From a virus: a stretch of 31,283 bases of DNA. The DNA lies in IMG/VR virus record IMGVR_UViG_3300022885_000059, positions 1-31,283 of that record. The stretch is one strand, 5' to 3'. Below are positions 7,772 to 30,411 of the stretch, one piece after another. The notes under the pieces are model-generated. The model saw nothing but the letters and a program-made list of their open reading frames with translations. It was not told the DNA's origin and searched no databases. A program made the position numbers and the translations under genes. Numbering within the stretch: position 1 is the first letter of the stretch; every line of letters starts with the position of its first letter.

Positions 7772-7779
7772 TGATGTGT

Positions 7780-10286: not shown

Positions 10287-11450
10287 TTATTGGATTTCAC
10301 TTATTCGACGTACTGGCTTTAGCGCCTCACTAAAGATGTCGCCTTCTTCCTTCTCAGCCTTCTTGGGAGCAGAAGTGTCCAAAGCAGGCAGTTTATCTCC
10401 CTTCTTTTTGCCCTTCTGCTCATCAATTTTCATGTTCTTTCCTTCGGTAAGCCCTTTTTCATACTCTGATTGAAGTGCTTGCTCATAATTCAGCCCCTTA
10501 AATACTATGCTCAAAAAATTCTTGGTGACTAAACCATTAGCAAGGTTGTCTATCTCCGGATTAATGCTTTCAGCCACAAGACTCTCAAACTGTTCATCAT
10601 CAACCTCAAATTCTTTTTTAAACTCGCTCACATACTCGGCAGATTTGTCTGCGTTCTTTTCAAGTTTTTCCTGTCTCTGCTTTTCATTGTCCTGAGCTTC
10701 TTTGGCCTTGGCCTCACGCTCTTCTCTTTTTTTAACAGCTTCCAGGTAAGCATCCGGATCCGTTTTCTTTAGCTCATCCATATCAACAGCCGGATCTATT
10801 TCAAGTGCTGAAAGAGCTGTATTTAGATCAGCCCCATGAACGTGCATAAACCGTGCTACTTCCCGAAGATCCTCAGAGCCTTCAAGTAGATTGTAAAAAG
10901 AAAGATTGCTCTCTCTCTCGGCTTCAAGATCCTTTTTAGCCTGATCAACCTGCTCCTTATAGGAGGCCATTTCATCAATAGCACTCTGAATTTGCTCAGG
11001 ATCTTCAACATCAAGCTCAGGATTAATTTCTTTTAGTTTATTAACCAACCACTCAGGTTGCTCAGAGACCTTTTCGGCCTCTTCTTTTTTAGCATCTTCC
11101 TTTTCCTTCTCAGCCTTTTTTTCTTCTTCAGATTTCTCTTTTTCAGAATCATCATCCTTTTCCTTGTTTTCAGCGGTTTTTTTTATGGCTTCATCATCTT
11201 CATCTTCTTCGGCCTCAGCTTTTTTCTTATCTGACTTTAACCCGGTTTCTTCATCCCCCCCCTCAGCCTTGGACACTTCGGTTTCATACTCTCTTTCGGT
11301 ATCATCAGCTACATCAGCAAAAGAGACACCACCACCTGCCTCCACTTCATCAAGAATTTCAAATGGGCTTTTATCGCTCTGCTTTCCGTTATAGTCAGCA
11401 TGCTCTTTGCTTTCAACAGTCTCAACAACTTCTTCTTCCTTGCCTTTCAT
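10287..11450 (-). CDS. Scaffolding protein (387 aa)
   Basis: Highly charged, mostly Glu/Lys/Asp, with long coiled-coil-prone helices (about residues 90-135 and 155-180, and again around 230-265), no Cys and no membrane segment. Such composition immediately upstream of a capsid gene, with a basic C-terminal end (KPVRRISEIQ) that could bind the capsid protein, is typical of phage internal scaffolds that organise procapsid assembly and then leave. It has the best ribosome site in the window (GGAGGAG, spacing suited to the ATG at 11450) and follows two tandem terminators, so a promoter or regulated readthrough should feed it. Assignment rests on composition and synteny, as scaffolds are poorly conserved. 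Confidence 0.82.
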   Translation of the reverse strand: MKGKEEEVVETVESKEHADYNGKQSDKSPFEILDEVEAGGGVSFADVADDTEREYETEVSKAEGGDEETGLKSDKKKAEAEEDEDDEAIKKTAENKEKDDDSEKEKSEEEKKAEKEKEDAKKEEAEKVSEQPEWLVNKLKEINPELDVEDPEQIQSAIDEMASYKEQVDQAKKDLEAERESNLSFYNLLEGSEDLREVARFMHVHGADLNTALSALEIDPAVDMDELKKTDPDAYLEAVKKREEREAKAKEAQDNEKQRQEKLEKNADKSAEYVSEFKKEFEVDDEQFESLVAESINPEIDNLANGLVTKNFLSIVFKGLNYEQALQSEYEKGLTEGKNMKIDEQKGKKKGDKLPALDTSAPKKAEKEEGDIFSEALKPVRRISEIQ

Positions 11451-11463: not shown

Positions 11464-11509
11464 AAAAAAAGCCTGGCACTCCCTGCATTTGCAAAGAATT
11501 ACCAGGCTT
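11464..11509 (-). terminator. Second tandem terminator before the scaffold gene
   Basis: Minus-strand AAGCCTGGTA pairs with TGCCAGGCTT (one G-U) and is followed by a run of T residues, 14 nt before the scaffold ATG. The loop is long (about 26 nt) and holds a further palindrome, TTTGCAAA. The sequence ATCGGAA precedes the stem, as before the other two RNA-element terminators. A promoter for scaffold would have to lie inside or between the two terminators, or expression depends on readthrough. Confidence 0.8.
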
Positions 11510-11530: not shown

Positions 11531-11582
11531 AAAAAAAAAGGCTACTATGACCGCATATTTCTATGCCGTTATAGTAGCCTTT
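11531..11582 (-). terminator. First tandem terminator after RNA element copy 1
   Basis: A long stem (minus-strand GGCTACTATAACGGCAT against ATGCGGTCATAGTAGCC, two internal mismatches, 6-nt loop) is followed by nine T residues. It starts within 3 nt of the 70-nt RNA element and closes the ejection-protein/portal unit. Confidence 0.88.
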
Positions 11583-11652
11583 CCGATAGCTTTATTATAT
11601 GTACATGTGCTTTCGCACGTCGGTTGGCGTCTGTGCTGAACGCCTATGGACA
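11583..11652 (-). ncRNA. 70-nt structured RNA element, copy 1
   Basis: Read on the minus strand: TGTCCAT; hairpin A (GGCGT, 9-nt loop, ACGCC); AACCGAC; hairpin B (GTGC GAAA GCAC); ATGTACATAT; an 11-nt spacer; CGGAAA running into a terminator. A second copy at 30308-30377 keeps the single-stranded blocks but has different, still complementary hairpin arms. TGTCCAT can pair with ATGTACA (one mismatch) to close a three-way junction, and CCGA can pair with TCGG at the end as a pseudoknot. It starts about 40 nt after the 73-aa gene stop. I recognise no known ribozyme or riboswitch class. Confidence 0.7.
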
Positions 11653-11691
11653 ACTCAATTTAATTAATCTTTAGAATTAATCAAATTTATA

Positions 11692-11913
11692 CTAATTATC
11701 TTCTAAATATTGTACTTCACATTTCTTTCCTGTACCCACCTCAACAATATGCCCGGTCTCCGGATCACGAATAAAAGTAACCTGATTCTTGCGATATCCA
11801 TTACCTTTATCTTTGGGCCTTAACAGATCGTATATAAAGTTTGTGGCTTTAAACAATCCATCTTGTGTTAATACACCTTTTGGTGAAATATTTTCATCAA
11901 TCCTTCTCGCCAT
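11692..11913 (-). CDS. Hypothetical small protein after portal (73 aa)
   Basis: Small basic-to-neutral protein, not recognised. It contains FIRDPETGHIVEV and GKKCEVQYLEDN, a short beta-hairpin-like second half that reads like a small SH3- or OB-type strand pair, after a helical N-terminal half (about 15-35). It lies 18 nt downstream of the portal gene and is the last gene before the structured RNA element and tandem terminators, so it is co-transcribed with the ejection proteins and portal. Only a weak GAG ribosome site precedes it. Function unknown. Confidence 0.75.
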   Translation of the reverse strand: MARRIDENISPKGVLTQDGLFKATNFIYDLLRPKDKGNGYRKNQVTFIRDPETGHIVEVGTGKKCEVQYLEDN

Positions 11914-11931
11914 CTGTTTCTCAATTTAAAT

Positions 11932-13875
11932 TTACTGATTGGGTGTTAAACCGCCCTGCTCCGCCATGCTTTGCATCTGCTCAGGGGTAAGCCCAACAGG
12001 AGGCTGACCATCCTCCTGCTGTTTCTCTTCACGATTATCCAATAGCTGTAATAGTTTATCAGCATATGGCATGCTCGTTGTCTGTAGATATTCTCTAAAA
12101 GTAATTAACTGACCTGACAAAAACTCTTTCAATTCAACGTCAACATTTTGTCGGTAAGCCAGAGTTTGTTGCGCCTCTCCAACTACCACATCAAAATCAA
12201 CATCTCGTACCTCGTCCGGATCATACATACTGTCTACACCACTGTCATATCCGGTTCCGCTGATTTTAATATACCTCGGTTCAGAGTAAAATTGTTTGAT
12301 CACTTTAACTACTTTTCGGTTTCTCTTGCGAATCAGCCCATAATAAAAATCGAAAATATCTTTATTGGTAATACTCGCATTTAAGGTCTGCTGTGCGTAC
12401 AACGATGCCGGTGTTTGCCTGCTTGGCTCTTTACCTTGAACCGCATCCGTAACGGCACTGATATCTTTTAGAAGCTCAGATTGAAGGTTCAAAAGACTCA
12501 TGGCCTCCACCGGGAATGATGCGCTTTGAATTTCTTTAGGCATGTTCAGCTTACCACCCTGGGAAGTATAAAAAGCAAAACCATTCATCTGAACCATATC
12601 ATCGGCATACTCTTGAAGATTGCCCTTATACTGCGCCGGGATGCTGTCTACATCAACCATCATAACCTTTTTCAAAGACCGGCCAAGACTTGCATCGATC
12701 ATAGAAATCAAACGGTTTACATGACGTTGCTGATCAATAATTGAACTGCAAAGACTCAACACTTTACCATCCATCATATACCGGCCAAGCACATAAGGGT
12801 GCTCTTGATGATCATACGGTGACTTCATGGATAAAATCAGATCGCCGTTTGGACTCAGATAATACACCCTCCAACACTCCTCATAACGGCTATGAAGCTC
12901 CATTTTGGCAACCGCATCCTCTCCCACACCTTGGGCAGCTGCCTGATCTACTCTTGCCTGATTCAATAGCTGAACAATCTCTTCGAGAGAGTAGCTATTA
13001 ATAATTTCAGGATCATATCCATTATCAATAAAAAACTGCTTATCAACTGGCTCAAAGTATCCGTCTTTATAGTCATGAAGAAAATCCATGTCCTCATAGC
13101 CCCTTTCCCATACCTCAATAACCCTGAGTTTATCCGGATTGTCAGGGATATAAAAGTCTCTGAACTTTTGAATATGCTGTGGAAAATTATTGATTTCCCA
13201 ATCATCTGCACGTGCATCCGGGAATATGGATAATAACTTCTCTTTGTCACGAATACTGAATCCAAATTTACTCATTATCTCATTCAGGGTAAGGTCATGC
13301 AGTTCCCCTATAATGGTTATATCCATTCCACGAATATCGTTTGCATCCGCATTATAAAATATTCGTGTAGCATCCAGGTTGTTTATATATAGATCTTCAC
13401 GGTCTAACTGACTCCACCATTTATAACCAACTTTCCATCCAACCACACCGCCAACGGAAAACTCCTTCATGTTCTGAGCATCCAGCTCATTTGCTTCATT
13501 GATATCCAAAGCATACTGCAGGGCACTTGTCATCATTTCCCCTGCTGAGGCGTTTCCTCTTGAACGTCCAAACGCTACAGGATCAGGGTAGTTTGTCCTG
13601 AATTGCCCTGCAAGATTTCGAATAGTCTTACCAATCAGATTTTGTTTTGCCGGAATCCTTCCCTGTTTTCGGATAAAGGTTTCCTCAGAGATCATTTCCC
13701 CCGTGTCGGGATCTTTCATCAGATCACTCCACTGGTCTCCGACATAGTACCTGAAATTCCTTTCTCTTTCCTCACGGATGGGCATGGTATCATCAAAAGC
13801 CAGACGTGCCCTTTCAAGTCGCTTTATGTTATCTATCCTTTGTTCTTCGGTTAATTTAGGCAGTTTTTGTTCCAT
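11932..13875 (-). CDS. Portal protein (647 aa)
   Basis: Forms the dodecameric DNA gate at one capsid vertex. Evidence is the overall portal pattern: an N-terminal helical region with RERNFRYYVGDQW (about 35-47), then RKQGRIPAKQNLIGKTIRNLAG (about 70-90), where portals have a polar loop followed by I-x-x-x-x-G-Q; a region with WKVGYKWW and beta strands forming the clip and wing; and a C-terminal helical stem/crown with a Gln-rich tail (KQQEDGQ and following). Length fits P22-like or other podovirus portals of 550-750 aa. It starts 2 nt after the giant gene's stop, and scaffold and capsid genes follow beyond the terminators. I am confident in portal, less so in which portal subfamily. Confidence 0.87.
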   Translation of the reverse strand: MEQKLPKLTEEQRIDNIKRLERARLAFDDTMPIREERERNFRYYVGDQWSDLMKDPDTGEMISEETFIRKQGRIPAKQNLIGKTIRNLAGQFRTNYPDPVAFGRSRGNASAGEMMTSALQYALDINEANELDAQNMKEFSVGGVVGWKVGYKWWSQLDREDLYINNLDATRIFYNADANDIRGMDITIIGELHDLTLNEIMSKFGFSIRDKEKLLSIFPDARADDWEINNFPQHIQKFRDFYIPDNPDKLRVIEVWERGYEDMDFLHDYKDGYFEPVDKQFFIDNGYDPEIINSYSLEEIVQLLNQARVDQAAAQGVGEDAVAKMELHSRYEECWRVYYLSPNGDLILSMKSPYDHQEHPYVLGRYMMDGKVLSLCSSIIDQQRHVNRLISMIDASLGRSLKKVMMVDVDSIPAQYKGNLQEYADDMVQMNGFAFYTSQGGKLNMPKEIQSASFPVEAMSLLNLQSELLKDISAVTDAVQGKEPSRQTPASLYAQQTLNASITNKDIFDFYYGLIRKRNRKVVKVIKQFYSEPRYIKISGTGYDSGVDSMYDPDEVRDVDFDVVVGEAQQTLAYRQNVDVELKEFLSGQLITFREYLQTTSMPYADKLLQLLDNREEKQQEDGQPPVGLTPEQMQSMAEQGGLTPNQ

Positions 13876-13877
13876 GA

Positions 13878-16800
13878 TTATTCAAGTATGTTGGTTAAGC
13901 TTGGGTTCAATATTCTTGTCAAAGAAGGGGGATTCTGCGATGCCGATGTTCCGGCTGCTCTATTGTATTCACTATTAAATTCATTATAGAACCGCTGAAT
14001 CCGATCTAAAATTTCTTCACTGATCTGATCATAATTATCAAGGTCAGTTGGAAGTTTGTTCAGTTCACTGAAATGATTCGTAACAGACACACGTGTAGAG
14101 TTTTTGAAAGGTATTAAATCAAACAGGTTTGCATTATCCTCTGCAAATCTATCAGCCTCACCAAACCTTTCGTCTGCAATCATTTGATCATATTTCCATT
14201 CAATTTCATTAAGTGCATCAAGGTTTTCATAGAACCTTCTTCGAGATCCACTTGCCGGAACTTTGGCAAAATATACTCTTGCGACAGGAAACCGCATGAT
14301 GTCCTCCTCCGTCAGTAGATTATCACCAACTAAATGATCAACAACTTTTTGAGCTGCGTTCATTGAGGATATTGCAAAGTAACCGGCCCCACCCAGGTAG
14401 TTACTTACAAGAAATTCAATGGCATTAGGAGACATTTCAATCAACCCTTCTGTATAATCGTCTCCACCTGATATTCGATTTAGCGCTTTAGCCGTATCAA
14501 TAGCCCATTGCTGAGTATAATATCTGTAGTTCTTGTGCTGTGGAATATGCCTGTCTCCATATCTTTGTTCAGGAATAATCGGCATTCCCCTAAAATCAAC
14601 ATTGGTTGCCAATTCAAAGGGAGGAACAAAGATTGTGGGAAGCAATGATTTAGTGCCAGACTGAACTATACCGGCATCGGTTGCCTGCCCTCCAATAGGG
14701 TTAAATGATTGCCATGATATACTGGCAAGATTAAACGCCATTTCCTGCGGAGTCATTACATTGTTTGCCACTTTATTGGCATAGACACCTGCTGCCCAAT
14801 AAACATTTTGACCATAGGGTAACGGAACAGATATCAGTGCATCAGGATCGTCACTCGCGAAATTGGGGATCATAATCCTGTGTGCTACGGTAAAGTTGTT
14901 TAATTTGTCGAACCGAAACTCATCATCTTCATCAACCCCCAAACCTATTCGCAACAGGTCTGCCATCGCATAGGAAACAGATCCCATAATCAATGGTACA
15001 GCCGCTGCACGTGTGCGCCTTCTTTTGCCACCCTCCAAGAACGGCTCTGCCAACCTGGCCACGTTCTTTTGCGTAGCATTATAAAAAATCCAAATATTAC
15101 CCATCGTACCTGCCCAACTTCCTTTCTTATCAAAGTTTACAGTAAGAGACTTAAAGTATCTTGCTGCTTGCTTTGGCGTAAATGCCTGTCCTGTTTTAGG
15201 GTTAAGAACCTTATTCTCCATGAAATAGTCGTACCCACTTAACCGAATCAGGTTTTCAACCGTCGATGTATAGGACTGCATGATATGGTGAAATGCCTTA
15301 CCCGCTTTTTTAACCTTATACCAGTTGCTCCCATGCTGATCGATAGCCTCTGTGAGATCCTTGGTCAATCTCTTCAGGGGACTTAATTGATAATAACCAC
15401 TCATGCCGCCATGATGGATGAAATTTTTGATGTTCTTACCAAAATCCCCACCAAACTCATCCTTGTATAAAGCTCTCCAAATAGGCTTCATCAATCTTGC
15501 TAATCTAACCGGATTACCAATGGCCATGGCGGTTTTTGTATCAAAATCAGTTGCGATGTGCAATACACCGGTTGTACCATCTCGAACCATGTTTCTCAAA
15601 GGAAATTCCGGAGAGTATGTAATGTAGGCATTGCGTAAAAACCTCATATACTTACCAAGAGCGTTCATAGCCTCTGGCATTATATCCATATCATGGCCTT
15701 TCATCCATTCTGCTATATGCGGATCCGAAAACTCAATAAATGCAGGTTTTCCCCTTTTCATAAGAAATAGGTTCCTTGCCCCCTCTGTGAATGGATTATC
15801 TCTTTCAGACCATTCTGTCAAATGTTGGTTAGGATCTATGTCACGTACAACCACACCGGTAAGAAGCTCTTCTGCGGTTGGTTTATCAAGCTCTGCTATA
15901 TATCGTTTTTTACCAGTATCAGCGTCAATCTTTCCGGTATCTCGCCAATAGATATTCTTGATCCTCATTACCTTTTGAAAATCCGGATTATCAGCAGCAA
16001 AATTAAAGATCTTCTCTTTAACAAGGTTGGTCTCTCCTCTAATGATATTTGACTCAACCAGTGCGATCGTGTACCCTATAACGTCTCCCGGCTCAGAAGA
16101 TCTCCCCTCTTGGGTTTCAGGCATGACATACATGGTAGGATCAACGCCCTCAAAGTCCTTAAAGCCCCTCATTGGTGCATACTTTGGGTACATCTTTTTA
16201 AGCTTGCCATACATACCCGGCGTAATTAATCCATAAGCCACCTGTGCCTTTAGGTTTTTGTCAATGATTTGATCATGAACATCACCAAAAGACTCCATGT
16301 GACTTCTCCATCCGTTGTTGTCAATTTTGGCATTAATTTCATCAATCCTTTCCTTGGAGAGGCCGCTTCGGTTTTTTTCGCCTGTAAGCTCTTCAAATCT
16401 CTTATTAACATCTGGGGCATGACGTGCTTTTATAAAGTCCTGATAATCCTCATAGGTAATACCCATCCCCTTATTACCCTGTTGCATGATCTGTACATAT
16501 TCCTTCTTCAAGCCATTTTCAAATCGATTAAGCTGTATTTCAACCCGGCCACGTTTGAGTTCATCATCCTGCTTAAAATCACTCTGATCGGTTACACGGC
16601 CACCATCCCGGGTAACACCCTCAATCAGACGTTGCCCAGCAATACCTCTATCATGTAACCGGCGTACCCACTCATCATACTTTCTGTAATAAGCAAACTT
16701 GTAATCTGAAAGGTTATGGCCACCACCAAGACGGTATCTTACCTCTGGCTGTGAATCTTCAACTTTAAATAGCGGAACGGCATCACTAAGATTCTCTTTT

Positions 16801-19800
16801 GCAGTATCAGTGAGCTTAATGGATAATTGTTTGGATATACTCTCATTAATAGATATTAATTGACTTACCTTTCCGTCTACAGGCTCAACAACTGCTTTAT
16901 ACCCCTCTTGCTTTAACCTTTCATCCAATCTTTGCCTGTCGAACACCTCATTTTCAAAAGCATGAACTATTTTAAATAGATTTTCTGGTATACTACTACT
17001 ATCTAATTCAATGGCGGCAAACTGATCCCCTTCAACGTGTTTTTTAGCATTTTGAAGGAACGAAAGAACATCAGCCCGAGTCCAGTTGACATCAAAGCCG
17101 ACAGATTTCATTAGATCATTAATAAACTTGACAATCTTATCCCACATGGTAGGGGTTAGATCTCCCTCTGCGACATTGGCAAGAAACTCATCTGCTGCAA
17201 CATTTCGCCCCTCAGCTGTACTGGTGTCTAAATTATACTTGCGGACAATATGTTTATAGCGATCGCTCTCAGAAAAGCTATCATGAATCTCTTGAAGGAT
17301 CTTATTCATCCTGTTTTCAAAAACATCTTTGTTGCTACTATTGACCGCAACCATCGATCGAATACCCAAATGGCCAAACGCCTCATGTGCCAGTGTACGA
17401 ATCGCATCTGTTGGTGACTTTGCGTTATCGGCCACGATATAAACCCTTGCATCTAAATACACGCCAAGAACCTTTCTTTCTGTGCCTTTTGTATAAATTT
17501 GCCGTTTCAAACCAACAGGCAAATCATCGACCGTATCTACAACATGAACAAAATCATCATTGGCCCACTTGCTTGTAACCTTTTTGATTTCATCTTTTAT
17601 TGACTGCCTCCATTTCGGACTTTTAACAGCAGCAAGGCTCTCTTCGGTTGCCGATTCACTCAACAGCATTCTCACGCTTTCCCCCTCCTGAATATTCTCC
17701 AATGGTACTTCTGCATAAACACTGAACTTATCGGTAAGAATCTTCAACACCCTGCTAACGCTTTCCGATGGTACATCGACCTTCATTTTACTTCCACGCT
17801 TGGTAAAGTCACCCACAAGATCTCTCAAGTCAGTATCAAGGAAAAACTTACCCCCTTTAACCTTAGAACTTTGAACGTTCAATCGAATAGTACCATGCCA
17901 ATCTCTTTCAAATGAAACCCCGCTGGTCATTTCCAAACTATGTCCGGCTCTTAGGTCAAATACCTGCTTCTCTGCCTCAACAGCTTTAACACGAACCTTG
18001 TTTAACTTTTTCAATTCAGCTTCCTTCATGTTCTTAGGAAGAAGCACGCCATTCTTAATGCTTCCGTCTTTGGTAGTAAACTGAATCAGTTGACCTTTTC
18101 CGTCAAGCTTGCCCATAGCCTGCAGGATGTTTCCTGTGGCAATTAGACGAGTTTCAAAATTATTGCTGTCAAGCTTGCTATCCCAGTTCTGATAAATATC
18201 GTTTCTTGCATACTGGCTTAAATGACCGGTGTCAGCAATAGCGCTATTGATAAAGGCCACATTACTACCGGGAACCGTCACGCTTCGTTGGGTATCATTT
18301 GTAACAAATTTTAGCTTGATTGCAGAAGGGGCAAAGGGGTTTCGACTCTTTGGGTTTATATCAAAACCGACAAAGATCGCATTTTTTGTGATACCACTTA
18401 CCGCCCTGCTGTCTGCCGGAATAACATAGACGTCTCTTGGTTTAAATTTATTAAAAAGCCTTTTAACCGTATTTCTCTTCCATTCTGCTGCTTGGTCATG
18501 CGCTCTTGAATTAACCTCTATACGTTCTTCTGTTGTCAGCTCTCTCCTGGAGATATCCAATCTCTTTTCACTTAACCAGGAATCAATATAAAATTCTGCT
18601 TCTTTAGCCAATTCATTGCTGTAAACTTCTGGTATTTTCCCACCAAGATTGTCATTAATGATCTTATCAAGCTCCTCTCTCTTCATTGGCTTTCGCAATA
18701 CCTTCGCCTGAACAGTTTCTAAATAGGAGTCTCCACCAAAGACACTGTTTTTATTATCACCCTTTACAAGCAGATCCTTTTTAACAGTTTCCGCTTGAAG
18801 ATCAAAACTGTCCATGATAAGCTCATTTTCTCCGTATTCATTGAGCATATCAATATGAGAGGCATATCTCTCAGAAATTACTTCATAGAAGTCCTCCTGA
18901 GTTTTCGAGTCAAGCAATGCAATACGGCCGGTAGCTTTCATTGCGATATCCGCAACCGATACCTTGCTTCCATCTAACACCTTTTGCCAATCCTCTTTAC
19001 CGATCGGATTTTGCATTTTCTGATGAAGGTCTTGGTTTTCTCTCAGGTATTGAGTGACAATGAAGTCACCGTATTTGTTAATAAAGTCCTCCATTTCCAA
19101 AAACTCACTACTTGTCTTTTGAGAAGATGTGACATTGGCATCCAATGATTTAATCTTCTTTTTTAAGACCATCATCAACCGGGTCTCAGCAGGAATCGAT
19201 GAAGTGATATATTTGTATTCAGGCAATACAACCTGACCTGTACGGAAAATTCTGCCCCACTTCTGAACTTCGGTATTGATATTCAGCTCAGGTTGATGAA
19301 TAATCATTACCCTTTGCCGCCTGTCCCCAAACTTTTCAGATGAATGTGCACTGGCTCCTGTAGCGCCGGAAGAGTTGATAATCAGAGCATCAAGATCCCC
19401 CTCATTAAAGCCTCTGTAAAGTGTTGTCTTATCCTTTTCAGCTTTAGTTCTGTTCTGCAGTACACCCGTTCCATCCGGATTTAGATTAATCTTTCGGCTC
19501 CTGCCAGTTACTTCTCCAACACTAAAGCCTGCTTTTTCAATCTTCATGACAAGATAATCAAGCGGAGAAGGGTGCAGGTCTGTGGTTATGCCTTTTGATC
19601 TTTCAACAATCCTGTCATAGGCTCGTTTGCCATGATCGCTTAGCTCTTCCCGGGTAAGCTGCTTTGCGTCCTCTGTTTTTGATATAGCATCTTTCACACG
19701 ATATTTCATGACTGATTTTAAAGCACGCTCCATGACAATACCAAAGTTCAGGCTTTCAACACCTTCCCCGGTTGTGAATGTATCATCTAAAATAGTTTCC

Positions 19801-22800: not shown

Positions 22801-25800
22801 GGAGCCATCATATCAACAACACCGCTAATGATATTTGACTCAAACTTTCGCCCTCTATCGCTTAATGCCTCTCTAAGGCCTTGAATATCTCCCACCGGCG
22901 CCTCTGCCGAATCACCTTCCACAAAACTTTGAATCTTACTAACAAGAGCCTCCTTATCTGTCCACACATCAGCACGCCCGGGTACCTTCAATTCATTGGC
23001 ATACTGACGCGCCTTGATCAGATTATCTCTCCAACCCTCTTTCGGGACAATATTGTCCTGAGTATCGCCTATATTTTCTTGGGAAGATTCTTGAACTATA
23101 TCAGTACTAAACTCAATACCACTTTTGGATGCAACATCGCTCATTGCATCAATCATTGTAGTAACTTGATCTAAGTCTGGTTTTGGATGATCTATCTTTG
23201 CAGTAATAGTGTTGACTCCCAAAGAAAGTTCAATTGGCACAGAGTATTCCGGATCGGTTAATTTTGCATTACCGGGCATATTTCCTTCTCTTCGCACATA
23301 CACGGTAACATCAAACCCACCTTTAGAAGGCACTTGGGCATAACTAACACCTTTTCCGGGAAGATCAGACTCATATAGATCTCGAAGGAAGTTATTTCGC
23401 ATCTTCATAATCGGATGGGTACTGATATCTGCTGTACCTTTGCCCTTTTTCCCATACAATAGAGCGCTGGAAGTATCTCCTTTCAGGTACCTCTTAAACT
23501 CATCCATTGACATTTCCGTAATAGCACCCATTCGACTTGGGCCACTATCATCAGAGAAGCTATCGTTATATGCCTGAACAGCATCTTTACGTGTATTAAA
23601 GCCTATAAACCCCTTGTGTTCATCGAACTTGGCATCAAGATCTATCTGATCGATTACAAAAACCGTATCAGACTGTGGTGAATCTCCAATAGTTACATCG
23701 AAATGATCTCCATCTGCGCCCTCTGATCGTTTGATGTATCCGTAATGAGCAGGCATCTTAACCTCCCACTCAGTACCGTCGGAGGCTTTCCCTCTTCGAA
23801 TGCTTCCCTTTGGGTTTTCAATGGTGATATTAAGCCCCTGAACATTGATATGACCCATTTTATAATTACCTGCCTCCTTCTGCGGATCTGTCGGTTCAGT
23901 ATCGGTCTGCTTGGCTGCTTTTTTTATATCACTGGCCTTCTCAGCTTTAACCGGGTTATTAATCGTCCCCTCTGCAGTATCCTTTGGCTTTATAAAATCG
24001 TCTGCATTTGATAGAGCCAGAACATTTAGATCTTCCTTATGCTTATTGCCTTCAAGAGCCATAGCGCCCATATAAGCAGCTTTAAAGTTTTTAAATATCT
24101 TTCGAAAGAATGGCTCCCCCTTTTGAGCAATAACAAAATCAGCAAACTGCTGAAACTTAATATAGCCGATCTCACTGCCTTTGCCGATGATTTTGATACT
24201 TAACTCAATCAACTTGGGATCAAAGCCTGTATTGAGCTGTCCACTAATTTGATCATTAAACTCATCAAACAAGGAGTTCAGCTCTTCTTTTGCTTTCTCC
24301 TCTTTGGATTTCAAGATTTCTGCCTTGGTTTCTTTGGCGTCCGATACAGTCTCGCCTTGATTAAATAAACCACCCCCCTCTAAATCGTCCTTAATGCTAT
24401 CATAAATATCTTTTACACTGAATACCTCATTAACCTTTTTGCCTTTATGCTCACTTACAATAACCTTAGTATTTGGATATTTTTTACCATCTACATAGCC
24501 ACCAATCTGAATACTGCCACCACTACCACCACGACCGCTGTAGCTTTTCATGCTATCAAGGGTGTCGCCTCTCTCTACACGGGCATAAAGAAATGATTTC
24601 GCAAACTCAAGAGGAGACTTCGACCGATCATAAGGGTTTTTAGACTTCGTTGGTGTCTCTTTCTCTTTATTTTCATCCTGTTTTTTATGAGTAGTCCTCC
24701 AATTATGAGAATCCTGATTCTCTAAAAGATGTTTGATTTCAGTCTTTCTTTTTCCCTCTGTCTCATAGACAGCACGCTTATAGTCCAAGTAATCACTAAA
24801 GGCATTAAATTCTGTTGGGTTCTTTAATTCTACCTTTCTCTTTTCAGGTTTAGGAAGATTTTTATCTTGATTATCAGAAAGCTTAAAAAACAGTATATCG
24901 GCATTATAATCTGTTATTTCACCAGGTCTTGTAGAATCAGATAGGTTTTTAAGTTCTGCACGTCCCTTCTTATTAGGATTCAGAACTTCATATCGAACAC
25001 CGTCTTGACTCTCTATTACATCCCCTTTATCGAAGCTTTTAGAAGGAAAGTACCCTTCGTTTTCGTCTTTCGTAGCATTTTCTACCTCAGCACCAGTCTT
25101 GGGTTTTTCAGTCGCCTCAGATATTCCCGGATCCTCTTGCGCCACTTCTGTAATTGTTCCATCGGTATCTTCTTGTTTTGTTTCGGTTTTTGCCTGAACC
25201 GGCTTTGCAGATTTATCTTTTATTGTTAGCCCGTCAAAGAAGTTCTCTAACTCTGCGAGTGTTTCTTCCTCAGTTTTTGAAGTTGTAACCGCAGTTTCAA
25301 GATCCTCAATGCTTTGCTCTGTTTGGCTGGCTGCTTGCTCAATTTGCTCGATTTCATCTTTACTTACTCCCTCATTTTCAAGTTCACGTTTAACCGATTC
25401 AATAGAATCATCTTTAATACCCAGTGCAGATAAATCTTCATCAGAGTTTAAATCACTATCTAAATCCTTTAAAAATTCTTCTTTACTTGTTTGCCTTCTT
25501 TCTATACCCTGAGAACCTGTTAAGGCATTTGCAACGCCAATATTGATATCAATTCCTGTAACCTTTTGAAATTGATCTTCAAGCCTTTGAATAATCTCAG
25601 GCTTTCTATTAATGACATTTTTTGGCCCACCAGGATTAGCTCGTATAAAATCCATGATATCATCAACACTAATATCCATGCCTGCCTGATCGCTCAAATA
25701 ATCAGCCCTCATACCTAAATCTACATCAGCCCTCTTTGAGGCGTATTGAGCATAGTAGATAGCCCCATCAAGGCCCCTGCCATCAAGATCGGATGAAGGT

Positions 25801-27980
25801 AGTCGTGATGATGCTAAATCATTAGCAATAATCATTTCTTTGTAATTTCCATCAGATTGCTCATCAAGCGTCTGAATGGCCTGCTGATAAGCCTCAGCAA
25901 TTTCAACCGGGTTTTCACTTCTTTGAGAGACTTCCCCCACAAAGTTACCTTCATTGACACCTGAATCAGGATCATCGGTAAGGCGAGGCATCTTAGAATA
26001 TTCATCTGCTGATTGCTCAAAAAACTCTTTAAGTTTAGGTAAGAAGTACTTGCTTCTGTTGCCTATTTCTTTTCCGTCCGGATTGATAACCTTAATTTCT
26101 GCTCCGTCTGCCTCAATACTGTACTGGCCAAGCTTTCTTTTGTTGTTAATGCTTTTTCCTAATTGACTATCAGAAGGCATTACCAATATCTGCATCTTGC
26201 TAAATGGATCTGTTGGATCCGTTGGCATTGCCTCTATTGTGTATTCAGAACCACGACCGGAGAGCTCTTCGGTAAGATCATTAACAATATCATTCACCTC
26301 TTTGCCGGTTAACTCTGATATTGGCGTTTCAATGATACCACCCTCACCGTCGGCTATTTTTGTGTTCAGAACATTGAAACTACCGTCTGCGCCCTCTTGA
26401 AGGTCAACTATCTGACGGTTTCTGCCTTGGCCTATGGTTAATTCGGTTATTCTGTTGCTAACACGATCAATTTTTGCCACTGCTTCCTCATAACCAACCT
26501 CACCCGGATAGAGGAAATCACCAGTATCAGGATCAACAACAACATTTTCCTGCGCTTCGGCATCATTTGACTCTGATTCATCGATCTCCATCATTGACCT
26601 TTCAGCTGCTTCCTGCTCCTGTGGAGTAATTTCTACTAAATCACTGATAGCATCCGCATCCACAAGCTTTTGTTTGCCATCTGGAAACTCTATATACAGG
26701 TCGCCTGCCTCATCTTCTCCAACAACTTTAACGTCTTGATCTTTATACTTTCCAACGGTAACCGGCTCACGTTCAACTATTGGCCCAGGTCTTTCTTGAT
26801 TCTGTGGTTCACCCGCATTTGTTCTTCCGGCCATCTTTGCAGCACGACCGCCAAGGCCTGTAAGAATAATATCAGACAAGAATCCTGCCCCACCACCCAC
26901 CGAAGCAGATTCAGCCCAACCCTCCATATATGGCCTCTCAGCATCATAAAGTTCTTTCGCTATGGCATTAAACCCAACCTGACCCAAAGTTTCTACAAGA
27001 GCCTCATTGATACCTGATTTACCACTTTCAAGAACACGCCTTGCCAACCCTTCAACCAGTCGGCCGCCGTATGCCCGATCCCACCTGTTAAGTACTCTGA
27101 GCGCCGTATTCGACACTTGAACAATACCGGGTAAAAATCCCCACTTAGCCGCCATCTGTGCATCGTCCTCAGATGCACCAAACTCCTTGGCCTCTTCATA
27201 AGATCGACCCGCACCACCAAACCCTGCTGTAACCCAAGCAAACGCCTGAGCTGCTTTCATAGACCCTGTCAACATCTTTGTAATAGCGCCACCACCTGCA
27301 AACCCTAAAAAACTACCAAGGCCTGCGGCTAACTGTTGTGAAAACTCCTCCTGTAGGATTGGATCTGTTTTAAAGTTTTCATTGACCAATGCTCTTAATC
27401 TCTGTCCAAGCTGATAAGTAAACTGTTCATCAACATCACCAGGCTGAAAGTCCACTCCAAGAGTTTCATCAAGCCATTTTGCTGTGGTAGCAATACCCAT
27501 CAATAACCCAACGGGCACCTCACTTGCTCCCTGAACAAAGTTATTGATACCATTGAGGAACCGAACACCGGCGCCGGATGGTTTTAAATCTTTTATTTCA
27601 CCCTCAATACTCTTTAATCGACCAGATATATCACTTATCTGCTGATAATTGACACCGGTTCCCTCACTTTTAAGCTGTGAACGCTCACGTGTTAATTCTT
27701 GCCGCTTCGTGGATAGTTCAGCATAACGCTGCTGATCCTCACTGTACTCTGGCTGTTTACCCTGTATAGGTTTACTTGGTGCCTTATCTGTTGGCTTTTC
27801 TGCTGATAAACCACCTCCGTAAATCTTGTCAATAAGGCTATTAACATCGTACTTATCGGTAGGAGCCGGGGGATCTCCTTGCTGATCAGAGTCGACAATC
27901 TCCGAAGGCAATAGGTGCCTGTTCCGGGTAAGTATATCCTTGGCCTGCAACTTTGTTGGATCGGTGCTATCCTGTTTCAT
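13878..27980 (-). CDS. Giant polyvalent ejection-type protein with methyltransferase and SNO/DarB-like helicase (4700 aa)
   Basis: One uninterrupted frame. Parts in order: coiled coil 81-133; Gly/Ala-rich hydrophobic stretches at about 138-170, 215-257 and 353-382, possibly membrane-active; acidic linkers; a helical polyvalent-type domain at about 1240-1305; an inorganic-pyrophosphatase-like domain with GADGDHFDV at 1421-1429; an N6-adenine methyltransferase-like domain at about 1895-2165 (FEPSAGNG from 1963, TNPPF at 2025-2029); a Ser/Gln/Gly-rich linker at about 2167-2293; a strawberry-notch-type helicase at about 2310-3150 (Walker A GDQTGIGKGR with Lys2397, DESH 2514-2517, arginine motif near 2906-2913); a DarB-associated beta-rich region at about 3170-3430; an HEXXGH metallopeptidase-like motif (His3532 to His3537); and a C-terminal LPD38-like region from about 3700 (PEFPLRNMVRD near 4124-4134). 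P1 DarB, a virion antirestriction protein, shares the methyltransferase-helicase pair. Ejection is inferred from position behind two smaller candidate internal proteins and before portal. ATG directly follows the upstream TAA. Confidence 0.85.
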   Translation of the reverse strand: MKQDSTDPTKLQAKDILTRNRHLLPSEIVDSDQQGDPPAPTDKYDVNSLIDKIYGGGLSAEKPTDKAPSKPIQGKQPEYSEDQQRYAELSTKRQELTRERSQLKSEGTGVNYQQISDISGRLKSIEGEIKDLKPSGAGVRFLNGINNFVQGASEVPVGLLMGIATTAKWLDETLGVDFQPGDVDEQFTYQLGQRLRALVNENFKTDPILQEEFSQQLAAGLGSFLGFAGGGAITKMLTGSMKAAQAFAWVTAGFGGAGRSYEEAKEFGASEDDAQMAAKWGFLPGIVQVSNTALRVLNRWDRAYGGRLVEGLARRVLESGKSGINEALVETLGQVGFNAIAKELYDAERPYMEGWAESASVGGGAGFLSDIILTGLGGRAAKMAGRTNAGEPQNQERPGPIVEREPVTVGKYKDQDVKVVGEDEAGDLYIEFPDGKQKLVDADAISDLVEITPQEQEAAERSMMEIDESESNDAEAQENVVVDPDTGDFLYPGEVGYEEAVAKIDRVSNRITELTIGQGRNRQIVDLQEGADGSFNVLNTKIADGEGGIIETPISELTGKEVNDIVNDLTEELSGRGSEYTIEAMPTDPTDPFSKMQILVMPSDSQLGKSINNKRKLGQYSIEADGAEIKVINPDGKEIGNRSKYFLPKLKEFFEQSADEYSKMPRLTDDPDSGVNEGNFVGEVSQRSENPVEIAEAYQQAIQTLDEQSDGNYKEMIIANDLASSRLPSSDLDGRGLDGAIYYAQYASKRADVDLGMRADYLSDQAGMDISVDDIMDFIRANPGGPKNVINRKPEIIQRLEDQFQKVTGIDINIGVANALTGSQGIERRQTSKEEFLKDLDSDLNSDEDLSALGIKDDSIESVKRELENEGVSKDEIEQIEQAASQTEQSIEDLETAVTTSKTEEETLAELENFFDGLTIKDKSAKPVQAKTETKQEDTDGTITEVAQEDPGISEATEKPKTGAEVENATKDENEGYFPSKSFDKGDVIESQDGVRYEVLNPNKKGRAELKNLSDSTRPGEITDYNADILFFKLSDNQDKNLPKPEKRKVELKNPTEFNAFSDYLDYKRAVYETEGKRKTEIKHLLENQDSHNWRTTHKKQDENKEKETPTKSKNPYDRSKSPLEFAKSFLYARVERGDTLDSMKSYSGRGGSGGSIQIGGYVDGKKYPNTKVIVSEHKGKKVNEVFSVKDIYDSIKDDLEGGGLFNQGETVSDAKETKAEILKSKEEKAKEELNSLFDEFNDQISGQLNTGFDPKLIELSIKIIGKGSEIGYIKFQQFADFVIAQKGEPFFRKIFKNFKAAYMGAMALEGNKHKEDLNVLALSNADDFIKPKDTAEGTINNPVKAEKASDIKKAAKQTDTEPTDPQKEAGNYKMGHINVQGLNITIENPKGSIRRGKASDGTEWEVKMPAHYGYIKRSEGADGDHFDVTIGDSPQSDTVFVIDQIDLDAKFDEHKGFIGFNTRKDAVQAYNDSFSDDSGPSRMGAITEMSMDEFKRYLKGDTSSALLYGKKGKGTADISTHPIMKMRNNFLRDLYESDLPGKGVSYAQVPSKGGFDVTVYVRREGNMPGNAKLTDPEYSVPIELSLGVNTITAKIDHPKPDLDQVTTMIDAMSDVASKSGIEFSTDIVQESSQENIGDTQDNIVPKEGWRDNLIKARQYANELKVPGRADVWTDKEALVSKIQSFVEGDSAEAPVGDIQGLREALSDRGRKFESNIISGVVDMMAPKEGARAFASVSGRYMNENNAPGKGNPVINFDWVNDWAYDPATNTIYAHIIPTRAMDDPQGGTKNFKSDIQDSQEIISKITKLGQQSETDQADLFGQSAQTAKPNKPANKKAESEKPNEITSDEVGFIAEIKSNIKKGRVLSKSQLNALADKHEVEGGDKRIKELAEYAIVSQARQIVESNPLADDAYSEMVDLYTSQPNLTARTSSSIELQQYSTPAPLAYMMGRYVNLHNGVAGFEPSAGNGLLTIAAGKSVKNIIANEIDSDRLDTLNQQGFNRVTNQDGSKEFTGLLNTQQAIVTNPPFGATDARFGYTIDGRNGEMTKLEHVMSARALQTMRDDGKAAIIIGGNDSFNDNGMRTGQDGVFFNWLYHNYNVEDIINLDGAFFRKQGTSFPTRIILVNGRKMLPEGFAPLHEIPPKVVDSFDSFYQIINTKLSEANHEAVSQPQLDSGRGTDSTVSDKGSRFGSDNIGGQTDSIPTQGSRNDNRSGRKPGADNQGNDAGATRGDIADGQSGLFGEPASQQQSLSDTSKSDQRAIGQQSEGESSPGQAEQQRTPRSTPREKSVLDSRITAKDVLDNDGGNLDYAPLSNSGVIQTEMPATMAMSMRNTLEGLADRVGNVDAFVMDKLGYDNVDQLYDALAAEQVDAVALAIAQIENGKSLIVGDQTGIGKGRVAASMIRYAKNQGMTPVFFTEKDNLFTDMHRDLVDVGSSFRPFIVNSSTNIEDQSGKVVFRTDKTTRHNKVLKNPSLASEYDYVAVTYSQIQSENYSKKRDFIKALAPNALIIMDESHNASGNSNTGEYMMEVIGEAKGAVYLSATFAKRPDNMPVYAIKTDISDVAMDTDEMIEAIERGGVALQEIISSDLVKSGQMVRRQRSFKGVKREFEVMGTNEDGTLNKDGQAQRKLYDEASEVMRDIIDFQNVYVSEILSGMEKSLKMEAKEALGQRGVKKAGVDNQPFVSRIHNIVDQLLFSIKVDAVADEAIRIIKSDRKPVIAVKSTMETILDDTFTTGEGVESLNFGIVMERALKSVMKYRVKDAISKTEDAKQLTREELSDHGKRAYDRIVERSKGITTDLHPSPLDYLVMKIEKAGFSVGEVTGRSRKINLNPDGTGVLQNRTKAEKDKTTLYRGFNEGDLDALIINSSGATGASAHSSEKFGDRRQRVMIIHQPELNINTEVQKWGRIFRTGQVVLPEYKYITSSIPAETRLMMVLKKKIKSLDANVTSSQKTSSEFLEMEDFINKYGDFIVTQYLRENQDLHQKMQNPIGKEDWQKVLDGSKVSVADIAMKATGRIALLDSKTQEDFYEVISERYASHIDMLNEYGENELIMDSFDLQAETVKKDLLVKGDNKNSVFGGDSYLETVQAKVLRKPMKREELDKIINDNLGGKIPEVYSNELAKEAEFYIDSWLSEKRLDISRRELTTEERIEVNSRAHDQAAEWKRNTVKRLFNKFKPRDVYVIPADSRAVSGITKNAIFVGFDINPKSRNPFAPSAIKLKFVTNDTQRSVTVPGSNVAFINSAIADTGHLSQYARNDIYQNWDSKLDSNNFETRLIATGNILQAMGKLDGKGQLIQFTTKDGSIKNGVLLPKNMKEAELKKLNKVRVKAVEAEKQVFDLRAGHSLEMTSGVSFERDWHGTIRLNVQSSKVKGGKFFLDTDLRDLVGDFTKRGSKMKVDVPSESVSRVLKILTDKFSVYAEVPLENIQEGESVRMLLSESATEESLAAVKSPKWRQSIKDEIKKVTSKWANDDFVHVVDTVDDLPVGLKRQIYTKGTERKVLGVYLDARVYIVADNAKSPTDAIRTLAHEAFGHLGIRSMVAVNSSNKDVFENRMNKILQEIHDSFSESDRYKHIVRKYNLDTSTAEGRNVAADEFLANVAEGDLTPTMWDKIVKFINDLMKSVGFDVNWTRADVLSFLQNAKKHVEGDQFAAIELDSSSIPENLFKIVHAFENEVFDRQRLDERLKQEGYKAVVEPVDGKVSQLISINESISKQLSIKLTDTAKENLSDAVPLFKVEDSQPEVRYRLGGGHNLSDYKFAYYRKYDEWVRRLHDRGIAGQRLIEGVTRDGGRVTDQSDFKQDDELKRGRVEIQLNRFENGLKKEYVQIMQQGNKGMGITYEDYQDFIKARHAPDVNKRFEELTGEKNRSGLSKERIDEINAKIDNNGWRSHMESFGDVHDQIIDKNLKAQVAYGLITPGMYGKLKKMYPKYAPMRGFKDFEGVDPTMYVMPETQEGRSSEPGDVIGYTIALVESNIIRGETNLVKEKIFNFAADNPDFQKVMRIKNIYWRDTGKIDADTGKKRYIAELDKPTAEELLTGVVVRDIDPNQHLTEWSERDNPFTEGARNLFLMKRGKPAFIEFSDPHIAEWMKGHDMDIMPEAMNALGKYMRFLRNAYITYSPEFPLRNMVRDGTTGVLHIATDFDTKTAMAIGNPVRLARLMKPIWRALYKDEFGGDFGKNIKNFIHHGGMSGYYQLSPLKRLTKDLTEAIDQHGSNWYKVKKAGKAFHHIMQSYTSTVENLIRLSGYDYFMENKVLNPKTGQAFTPKQAARYFKSLTVNFDKKGSWAGTMGNIWIFYNATQKNVARLAEPFLEGGKRRRTRAAAVPLIMGSVSYAMADLLRIGLGVDEDDEFRFDKLNNFTVAHRIMIPNFASDDPDALISVPLPYGQNVYWAAGVYANKVANNVMTPQEMAFNLASISWQSFNPIGGQATDAGIVQSGTKSLLPTIFVPPFELATNVDFRGMPIIPEQRYGDRHIPQHKNYRYYTQQWAIDTAKALNRISGGDDYTEGLIEMSPNAIEFLVSNYLGGAGYFAISSMNAAQKVVDHLVGDNLLTEEDIMRFPVARVYFAKVPASGSRRRFYENLDALNEIEWKYDQMIADERFGEADRFAEDNANLFDLIPFKNSTRVSVTNHFSELNKLPTDLDNYDQISEEILDRIQRFYNEFNSEYNRAAGTSASQNPPSLTRILNPSLTNILE

Positions 27981-29531
27981 TTATAGATCGTTTGGATTTA
28001 TACCTAATGCTGATTCAAGTGCTTTGCGATCCTCATCTTTAGCCAAGGTGCTGAACCTTCTTTTCAGCTCTTGCAGTCTGCGCTCAAGCTCACGTTGGCC
28101 TACAGAAAGGTCTGCATCCGGATTGTTTCGCTTCATCTCATCAAGACGATGCTTCTGTTCGAGATATTTATTGCCAACATCATAGGTCTGACGTAAGTGC
28201 GCCGGTATAGACTCTCGCCTGTTTGGCTTCTGATTAGTTGCAGAAGAATCGCTTTGCTGTGAACTCTGGTCTTGCTGAGCAGAACCACCACCGGTTGATC
28301 TTTTCGATTCTAAGACCTTTAAGAACATTTGCTCATTGAGTTCATCTATCTGATTTTCAGGCACACCCTCTTCAATCAATAGGTCACGATTGTTTTTCAG
28401 CCATAATGCAGCAATATCCTGTTGCGATTCAAAAGACCTTGTTTTGAAAAATTCATCTTCAAGAATCTGTTGTTGGGTTACACGAGATTGCCTGACCGCC
28501 CTTTGTATCTGTGGAGACTGTTGCAATTCTGCACTGGCCCGCTCCTGTTGGTTTTGTCTTGTCTGTTGCTGTATCTGCTCTCTCTCAGGCCTCATGGCAT
28601 GATCGATCACATAGAAATCATCGCCCATCTGATTCAACAACTTATCCACATGCCATGCAGCGGTACCGGGTTTGGGTTTGCTGTAGTCTGGCTGTCGCCT
28701 CTCATCAAGCATATACTGCGAATCATCGACCTGATCCAAATAGTGTTGATATTCACTGTATAAAGCCTGTTGTTTTGGTTCTATTTTTACTCCGGCTACA
28801 AGAGAGCCATCCTCTGCTTCGCTTTCTTTGCCCTTCTGTCTTAAAGCTTTTATTTCCTCAGAGCCCAATCCCGCACGAGACAAATAGAAATCAGCTGCTA
28901 CTTTGTCGCCCTGAGAAATACTTCTCAATCCTGCTTCATACATTCGCTCTTTCTCTTTATCCTTTCCAAGAGCCTCTGCGGTTTTTTGGCTAAGCAGGCT
29001 ATCATACTCCGTTCTGGCCACCTCATAATCAATTTCGTTGTTGCGAATCTCATTATTCATGCCCAGTCTGTTGTTATACTCCTCAACCCTGTCTTTCTTT
29101 TGGTTGAACTGACGAAGATCAAGTTTATGCTCCTGGTCAATATTGGCCAGATTGTTTAAAGCTTGTAAACCCGTTCTGTCAAATCTTGCAGATGTATTAA
29201 TGGCTTCTTCGCCTGCCGCATGACGTCCTGCAACACTGGCAATAGAGTCAATAGCCTGAAGCAATGCCATTTTCTTTGTCATGGCACGGTTTTTTTTAAC
29301 CATCTTCTTATCAATCTCTGGTCTCTTTGGATCTGAGAGAAGAAAATCATCAATATTCACCTTTCGCCCGGACATAGCTTCCATGACATTTTCGAAAGCA
29401 CTGTTTAATACCGGATCGTCATCATCGGTTGGAGGATCAGCTTTTATACCACGCCTTTGGTTTATCTGATCCCTGTTGGGAAGCTCAAATACGTTCGGAT
29501 GGTCTCGAAGTGTTCTGATTGGCTGTATCAT
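27981..29531 (-). CDS. Putative internal virion/ejection protein (516 aa)
   Basis: Not recognised by motif. It is almost entirely predicted helix and polar: Asp/Lys-rich N-terminus, coiled-coil-prone centre (about 120-215), then Gln-rich segments (about 325-365 and 415-435) that look disordered. No signal peptide or membrane helix is visible. It sits between a 169-aa Ala-rich protein and the 4700-aa giant, the same small-medium-large order as T7 gp14-gp15-gp16 internal core proteins. It has a clear Shine-Dalgarno (GGAGGG, plus-strand 29539-29544) before the ATG, and its TAA is immediately followed by the ATG of the giant, so stoichiometry may be set by coupled translation. Role as ejectosome component is inferred from order and composition. 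Confidence 0.72.
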   Translation of the reverse strand: MIQPIRTLRDHPNVFELPNRDQINQRRGIKADPPTDDDDPVLNSAFENVMEAMSGRKVNIDDFLLSDPKRPEIDKKMVKKNRAMTKKMALLQAIDSIASVAGRHAAGEEAINTSARFDRTGLQALNNLANIDQEHKLDLRQFNQKKDRVEEYNNRLGMNNEIRNNEIDYEVARTEYDSLLSQKTAEALGKDKEKERMYEAGLRSISQGDKVAADFYLSRAGLGSEEIKALRQKGKESEAEDGSLVAGVKIEPKQQALYSEYQHYLDQVDDSQYMLDERRQPDYSKPKPGTAAWHVDKLLNQMGDDFYVIDHAMRPEREQIQQQTRQNQQERASAELQQSPQIQRAVRQSRVTQQQILEDEFFKTRSFESQQDIAALWLKNNRDLLIEEGVPENQIDELNEQMFLKVLESKRSTGGGSAQQDQSSQQSDSSATNQKPNRRESIPAHLRQTYDVGNKYLEQKHRLDEMKRNNPDADLSVGQRELERRLQELKRRFSTLAKDEDRKALESALGINPNDL

Positions 29532-29534
29532 ATC

Positions 29535-30044
29535 TTAACCCTCCGCTTCATTACCATAAAGCTTAGACATGGCCAAAGCTTGCCCCGCCTGACTTAATGG
29601 ATTAAGGATGTTTGCCCACGCATTTTGATCTTTTGCTAATCGGCCTTGACGTGCTCCTTCGGCTGCGCCCATTGTATTTAGGTATCTTGACATATTTACA
29701 TCCTTCAACCGACTGGCAAAGGCAAGTAATTGATTCAGGCCTGAATTATAGTTTTCATTGGAGTTTTGAACCGTCGCCAACTTAGCATCGTCTGTAGCCC
29801 CAAAAACAGCGGACTGATTATTGATTGCCCGTCTGTTTTTCTTATCTCTTGCATCAAGTTCTGACTTGCCTGACTGAAACGCTCTGGACTGCGTTACCGG
29901 CGCCTTGGCTTCATTACCAAAAATATCAGCCATGTTAAGCAGCTCCTTTTCATATTTTGATTTTTTTGATTTACCAATGCCTGTAAGATCGCTGATTGTA
30001 CGAAGGGCAGTAGGAGCAAGCATCAATGCTGTGGATAGTGCCAT
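29535..30044 (-). CDS. Putative small internal virion protein, T7 gp14-like by position (169 aa)
   Basis: The N-terminus (ALSTALMLAPTALRTISDLTGIG) is a hydrophobic or amphipathic helix that could insert in a membrane, followed by polar helical segments rich in Ala, Asn, Gln and Ser. The length is close to T7 gp14 (196 aa), the smallest internal core protein, which is ejected first and forms an outer-membrane pore. It is the first of three consecutive genes (169, 516, 4700 aa) that resemble an ejection cassette by size and composition. No sequence motif proves this. Its stop lies 3 nt before the next start, and the next gene's ribosome site overlaps its end. No clear Shine-Dalgarno of its own. 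Confidence 0.7.
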   Translation of the reverse strand: MALSTALMLAPTALRTISDLTGIGKSKKSKYEKELLNMADIFGNEAKAPVTQSRAFQSGKSELDARDKKNRRAINNQSAVFGATDDAKLATVQNSNENYNSGLNQLLAFASRLKDVNMSRYLNTMGAAEGARQGRLAKDQNAWANILNPLSQAGQALAMSKLYGNEAEG

Positions 30045-30079
30045 GATTGTAGTATTAGGTTAACGTTGGCTTCCAGCCC

Positions 30080-30250
30080 TTATCCTATTCTGTATTCACG
30101 AACTATGCTATCGGAGTAGATCACGTTACCGTTTGGCCGTGTGTAGATAAAACAACCAAACTTGGATCTCGCCTTTTTACATAGATAGGCGTTTCCGTTT
30201 TCAAGTAGGCAAATGACTTTTTCAAACATAGTTTTAAAAACTTTAGACAT
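30080..30250 (-). CDS. Possible small gene right after a terminator (56 aa)
   Basis: An ATG at 30250 begins directly after the eight-T tract of the terminator at 30251-30307 and runs 56 codons to TAA. The product starts MSKVFKTMFEKVICLLENGN, has two Cys near residues 14 and 24 and one near 33, and is basic overall. Codon content looks protein-like (an N-G-N turn, then alternating hydrophobic strands such as CFIYTRPNGNVIYSDS). There is no ribosome site for the first ATG, and a second in-frame ATG lies at residue 8. It fills most of the otherwise gene-less gap between GroES and the 169-aa gene. It could be a real small protein or chance. Confidence 0.45.
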   Translation of the reverse strand: MSKVFKTMFEKVICLLENGNAYLCKKARSKFGCFIYTRPNGNVIYSDSIVREYRIG

Positions 30251-30307
30251 AAAAAAAACCCGCCTCTACACGCCTAAACTATGTTTAAGAGTGTAAAAAC
30301 GGGTTTT
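30251..30307 (-). terminator. Terminator after RNA element copy 2
   Basis: Minus-strand AAAACCCG pairs with CGGGTTTT and is followed by further T residues (eight in total). The long interior contains nested pairing: ACAC/GTGT and the near-palindrome TAAAC-ATA-GTTTA. It immediately follows the CGGAAA end of the 70-nt RNA element, the same arrangement as at 11531-11582. It closes the unit that ends with GroES. Confidence 0.82.
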
Positions 30308-30377
30308 CCGAGACCCAAGTAATATGTACATGCAGGGTATTCCCTGCGCCGGTTCAGGATTTAAATCCTAATGGACA
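30308..30377 (-). ncRNA. 70-nt structured RNA element, copy 2
   Basis: Read on the minus strand: TGTCCAT; hairpin A (AGGAT, TTAA loop, ATCCT); GAACCGGC; hairpin B (GCAGGG AATA CCCTGC); ATGTACATAT; an 11-nt spacer; CGGAAA. The blocks outside the hairpins match copy 1 at 11583-11652. The hairpin arms differ in sequence yet remain complementary, with three of five base pairs in hairpin A and several in hairpin B changed on both sides. CCGG can pair with the terminal TCGG (one G-U). Total span is again 70 nt. It lies 34 nt after the GroES stop and directly before a terminator. Confidence 0.7.
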
Positions 30378-30411
30378 CTTTAATGTAACTTATTTTTTTA
30401 AAAATCTGAAA

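Follow-up and report, generated by a model that had tools for sequence, protein, structure and literature searches.

In phage lambda, late control depends on the pR' promoter, the 6S leader, the tR' terminator and Q; in Bacteroidota, most of what is known of antitermination-type control concerns NusG-like proteins that belong to capsule operons. Two further systems are relevant here. The put RNA of phage HK022 is present in two copies of ~70 nucleotides (nt), with two stem-loops each, and acts on downstream terminators (PMC9378689), and in Bacillus velezensis the LoaP/dfn leader depends on a UNCG hairpin and on LoaP, a paralog of NusG (PMC12691694). We analyzed the IMG/VR virus record IMGVR_UViG_3300022885_000059, a single whole record of 31,283 bases (the window) with its genes on the minus strand, in which a 70-nt RNA element occurs twice on that strand, each time before an intrinsic terminator. 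We place somewhat more than even confidence in the interpretation that the two copies are the start of a ~120-nt 5' leader (an attenuator), the terminator of which would have to be bypassed for late virion genes to be expressed.

Like the lambda pR'-tR'/Q system, this predicted arrangement includes a promoter, a short leader ending at an intrinsic terminator before late virion genes, and a read-through switch. Unlike lambda, these phages carry more than one leader in each genome, every late operon having its own, and the leaders contain hairpins and an ACATA box; no Q homolog was recognized when 26 proteins of the related phage G003 were compared to Pfam. The HK022 put RNA likewise measures ~70 nt, has two stem-loops, occurs twice in its phage and lies ahead of terminators; however, it acts over kilobases on the early genes of a lambdoid phage, whereas the homologs described here differ in hairpin number. 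A 5' leader, a small RNA hairpin, an intrinsic terminator and a long operon are shared with LoaP/dfn, which is a host operon and not a phage one; leader loops here are GAAA, AAUA, UUAA, AACA and similar, with UNCG not among them, and NusG was not matched in the scanned proteins (the partial set of 26 from G003). Riboswitch-type attenuators in Rfam also combine a folded 5' element, a possible antiterminator, a terminator and a gene, but the leaders studied here are without an Rfam match, a conserved aptamer core or a downstream metabolic gene. The resemblance to lambda pR'-tR'/Q, HK022 put and LoaP/dfn is an analogy in the proposed mode of working and not a demonstrated membership in any of them. 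Late-gene timing in Bacteroidota phages is little known, and the literature searched gave nothing on it; a terminator leader for each late operon would provide a concrete switch and a handle on the factor involved. If the interpretation is true, antitermination-type late control, as by lambda Q and put, would be extended to Bacteroidota.

Two folded copies and their diverged homologs

Copy 1 (11583..11652, minus strand) and copy 2 (30308..30377, minus strand) have predicted starts near 11650 and 30375. As the sequence-only reading had described, both carry TGTCCAT, hairpin A, AACCGRC (AACCGAC in copy 1), hairpin B, ATGTACATAT, an 11-nt spacer and CGGAAA (with the TCGG of copy 1 at this 3' end). 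The TACATA box is located at 11598..11603 of the minus strand in copy 1, where it is kept in homologs, and at 30323..30328 of the same strand in copy 2. The core AACCGRC-N{8,38}-ATGTACAT occurs two times in the window compared to none in 100 dinucleotide shuffles. Given copy 1 only, with hairpins A and B, a covariance model recovers copy 2 with 28.6 bits (E=1.5e-4) and has no other match in the window. In the alignment of the two copies all nine hairpin pairs are kept, six of them having changed on both sides, and when the hairpin pairs were slid as controls, only 12-46% of cells paired. The proposal of a structured RNA maintained by paired changes is thereby upheld, and so is the statement that it matches no known family: searches of the window and the homologs against Rfam, at gathering and permissive thresholds, returned no family, only chance matches on hairpins and a tRNA in L259. 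Two finer structural proposals were not supported. The TGTCCAT/ATGTACA helix, which was thought to close a three-way junction, is invariant between the copies and cannot form in the homologs, and the consensus fold is without a three-way junction, GUC/GRC closing hairpin A instead; the CCGR/TCGG pseudoknot differs between the copies in one pair, on one side only (A-U to G-U), and is missing from the homologs. Taken as a whole, the earlier interpretation is partly supported.

By reading equivalent intergenic gaps, we found four diverged homologs, two each in two syntenic relatives, G002 (L258; portal 49% identical to that of the window phage) and G003 (L178, L259; portal 40% identical), so that the expectation of homologs in related phages was borne out. 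Both gaps of G003 have the order hairpin, GGTTACATA, spacer, terminator; one precedes the scaffold and capsid genes and the other precedes an operon of genes for 167 amino acids (aa), 554 aa and a giant protein. The G002 homologs, with CCCACATAT, precede a 172-597-giant-portal operon and an open reading frame (ORF) of 659 aa, respectively, the latter assigned as terminase by position and size. G004 has a near-unchanged version of the operon copy of G003, and in G006 and G008 TTACATA and a terminator are found before the portal gene, at contig ends. The common anatomy consists of a predicted Bacteroidota-type promoter (TTTG-like, N19-20, TAnnTT-like) that stops 1-3 nt short of TG[AT]C/A, followed by one or two hairpins whose sequence is free to vary, [T/C]ACATA, 14-17 nt able to pair with the 5' arm of the terminator, and the intrinsic terminator. 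Promoter-like sequence upstream, then hairpins, [T/C]ACATA and a terminator, with coding sequence usually at once downstream, together mark the region as a probable 5' leader.

Searches by other means returned no homolog. Exact-joint patterns run against IMG/VR and GTDB matched only the same virus (L002/L005) and chance coding sequences without hairpins; BLASTN against phage records gave chance matches only; and a model of the two copies (R2), applied to 84 related loci and 42 whole records, found nothing because a two-copy model is too narrow. A match of R2 in BS-TP4 (0.59) was dismissed as chance. No additional ACATA leader was found in the terminase and capsid relatives that were examined.

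Promoter-like sequences, terminators and the proposed switch

The promoter consensus of Flavobacterium is TAnnTTTG at -12 to -5 (PMC9723704), and promoters of Bacteroides have TTTG near -33 (PMC7366714). A predicted promoter of this type precedes copy 1, with the -7 box TAAATTGA at 11655..11662 (minus strand) and TTTG ~19 nt upstream (~11682-11685), and copy 2, with the -7 box TACATTAA at 30380..30387 (minus strand) and TTTC ~20 nt upstream. Promoter-like sequence is directly upstream in all six leaders (summed best score 47, compared to a shuffled mean of 40.3; p=0.005). The six leaders share a fixed register, in which the -7 box stops 1-3 nt short of TGTC, TGAC or TGTA; therefore, the predicted transcription start coincides with the 5' edge of the element, which would explain why the conserved element begins with TGTCCAT. 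Measured to the end of the U-tract, the predicted leaders of the window are 120 and 125 nt long. Promoter box, TG[AT]C/A and ACATA come together as a composite exactly 2, 2 and 2 times in the window, G002 and G003, each time with a terminator after it and a virion operon next, whereas an order-2 Markov model predicts 0.3, 0.07 and 0.77 occurrences, or 0 if the terminator is required. A scan of ~3.6 Mb of sequence yielded these six composites and one weak extra match.

The terminator that separates each leader from its first gene is a GC-rich hairpin running directly into a U-tract. In copy 1, two terminators stand in tandem before the gene: T1 (AAGGCTACTAT...ATAGTAGCCTT, 11538..11581, minus strand) with a U-tract to 11531 and a fold z of -4.9 together with the element, and T2 (11469..11509, minus strand), 15-20 nt before the gene in the scaffold position (ATG 11450). 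The hairpin of copy 2 (AACCCG...CGGGTT, 30257..30305, minus strand; fold z=-7.0 with the element) has a U-tract ending at 30251, immediately followed by the ATG at 30250 that opens a putative 56-aa ORF. In L258 the ATG of the 659-aa ORF lies 7 nt past the hairpin arm, and in L259 a tRNA-Met (7763-7835, minus strand) begins ~10 nt past the leader terminator, ahead of the giant-protein operon of G003. Because start codons and the tRNA follow the terminators so closely, transcription could enter the genes only by reading through or by starting at a promoter that overlaps the terminator. The suggestion that the elements stand before terminators is correct, except that these appear to be leader terminators before genes and not terminators of operon ends; control of termination is retained among the suggested roles, whereas 3'-end functions at operon ends are not supported, given the promoter-like sequence upstream and the coding sequence that usually lies downstream in the homologs.

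The case for a leader is drawn from the sequence: paired changes maintain the hairpins, two relatives have homologs, the parts keep their composite order, and terminators adjoin genes. The model that follows adds, as predicted components, an active promoter and its start site, control by read-through, an antiterminator and possibly a factor. The leader RNA would start at its own host-type promoter, with the element as its first 70 nt, and fold into hairpins followed by the conserved single-stranded (U/C)ACAUA box, after which the polymerase would meet the intrinsic terminator directly before the late virion operon. By default, the polymerase would halt there and release a short RNA; the operon would be turned on by read-through, either via the leader structure itself or via a phage or host factor that binds the leader or the polymerase. 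With this leader, phages of this small, uncultured group probably decide when RNA polymerase reads into the virion genes. The spacer may pair with the 5' arm of the terminator in a short hairpin, a possible antiterminator. In minimum-energy folds of leaders cut within the terminator hairpin (first half kept), such a hairpin forms in all six cases (AGCT/GGCT, GGGT/ACCC, GGCTT/AAGCC, TAGGC/GCCTG, TAGC/GCTA and GGTTTT/AAAGCC), with a summed energy of -27.8 compared to -15.8 for shuffled spacers (p about 0.012).

Several observations weigh against this model. Swapping spacers among the leaders is as good in 79 of 720 arrangements, since the terminator arms resemble one another, and the antiterminator pairing is therefore suggestive only; moreover, the putative hairpin is short (3-6 bp) and far weaker than the terminator. 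The promoter pattern and the composite were fitted post hoc on the leaders, so that the composite counts represent specificity and not a blind test, and one leader, G002b, has a poor best unconstrained promoter score. In copy a of G003, taking the longest ORF puts the start of the 388-aa gene (12279) inside the terminator hairpin, which makes this predicted start codon doubtful. Hairpin number and sequence vary among the phages, and a single common fold is consequently not shown. Finally, no antiterminator protein was detected among the 26 G003 proteins compared to Pfam, most of which are unannotated, and the window record is incomplete. Tentatively, and with well under even confidence, we suggest that these leaders are an undescribed RNA class of Bacteroidota phages, one per late operon, in which a terminator joined to the beginning of the virion genes is controlled by one or more hairpins and by (U/C)ACAUA at a set distance, possibly via a new phage antitermination factor or directly on the Bacteroidota RNA polymerase.

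Alternative explanations

The same sequences can be read as a 3' untranslated or intercistronic element that protects or processes RNA ends, with the hairpin and U-tract terminating the upstream operon. Both copies do lie 35-40 nt past upstream stop codons of the same strand, and they have a single-stranded box with paired hairpins on either side, as processing sites do; nevertheless, promoter-like sequence adjoins the element in 6/6 leaders, the start codon or tRNA is in most cases too near the terminator for another promoter, and the downstream operon matches across homologs, which makes this explanation unlikely. We assign a marginally lower probability to a promoter with a 5'-terminal hairpin, in which the ACATA or TTATAC-like box would be the -10 box, transcription would start near the terminator-like hairpin, and the hairpin and U-run would stabilize the mRNA or aid translation. 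The box is 12-18 nt upstream of the hairpin, the TTATAC-like box of G006-G008 is 3-6 nt upstream, and start codons are preceded by AU-rich sequence, all in agreement with such a promoter. Compensatory hairpins 5' of the box, however, are sensible only if the region is transcribed, a GC-rich hairpin flush with a long U-run is the signature of a terminator, and the box departs from TAnnTTTG. For this misfit and for its variable upstream spacing, ACATA was rejected as a -10 box.

An autonomous put-like RNA, whose leader contacts RNA polymerase and confers terminator resistance without a factor, is improbable, slightly more so than the two preceding explanations. It would account for the match of the window copies to put in size, copy number and two hairpins, but in the relatives a single branched hairpin is the usual form, a comparison with HK022 found no sequence similarity, and the terminator stays at a tightly conserved distance, whereas put acts over kilobases. 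The model R2 had no match in HK022 26000-40751 at E values up to 10, a region in which put is unannotated and the PL/PR region is assumed to lie. That the RNA acts directly on polymerase is the less likely route, since hairpin number varies and terminator distance is kept. Very little credence is given to a ligand-binding riboswitch or leader-peptide attenuator: an aptamer-like element, a possible antiterminator and a terminator are in place, and the AUG starts AUG-UAC-AUA-UAA in copy 1 and a 21-codon ORF in copy 2, yet the homologs share no strongly conserved aptamer core, and the AUG before UACAUA is confined to the two window copies, being missing at that place in 4/4 homologs (L258, L178, L259). 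The leader peptide was rejected on this lack of conservation of the AUG.

Gene order and further leaders

Along the minus strand the window encodes a GroES-like protein, small genes, a 516-aa protein, a 4700-aa protein, the portal, 73-aa and 387-aa proteins, the major capsid protein and tail genes. The portal gene (11932-13875, minus strand) belongs to PHROG 156, and the host is probably a member of Bacteroidota because the annotated portal relatives (~31% identity) are Bacteroides phages. The first gene 3' of copy 1 in the ORF list (10287..11450, minus strand; 387 aa, ATG 11450) occupies the scaffold position and is followed by the major capsid gene (8885-10267, minus strand; PHROG major head protein). 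Directly 3' of the capsid gene is an intrinsic terminator (8848-8877, minus strand), which is also found at that place in relatives, e.g., GGGGGAGG..CCTCTCCC. The operon 3' of copy 2 starts with the 56-aa ORF and genes for 169 and 516 aa (27981..30250, minus strand), and its gene order is the same in L259/L178 and L258. The 4700-aa protein (13878-27980, minus strand; ORF list) lies between the 516-aa gene and the portal; its counterpart in one relative is annotated as DarB-like, and the RNA-polymerase motif D.DGD, looked for in this protein, was not found. A gene for a GroES-like co-chaperonin (Cpn10, E=1.1e-13; 30412-30708, minus strand) lies just upstream of copy 2.

A second set of leader terminators adjoins virion genes at L266:10398 and 18495, L269:10947 and 19058, L268:6759, and L314:8736 and 16834; these leaders have hairpins with paired changes and a TTATAC-like box, and no ACATA. 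The order hairpin, TTATAC-like box, terminator, ATG is found before the scaffold and 107-aa genes of G006, G007, G008 and G040. In orthologous scaffold leaders the terminator sequence is kept, whereas the upstream hairpin varies together with its partner (GTTGCC/GGCAAC, GTTGTC/GACGAC, TTGCGTA/TACGCAA); since the terminator persists while the hairpin co-changes, the sequences suggest a common occurrence of leader terminators within the clade. In G003 (L178, L259, L261), AATACAAACACACAT or a near-match is found a few nt before many start codons, and it is perhaps a translation signal replacing Shine-Dalgarno. G003 also encodes a protein with a Tad2-like (Thoeris anti-defense) domain (L261:3464-3991, minus strand; E=3.8e-21).

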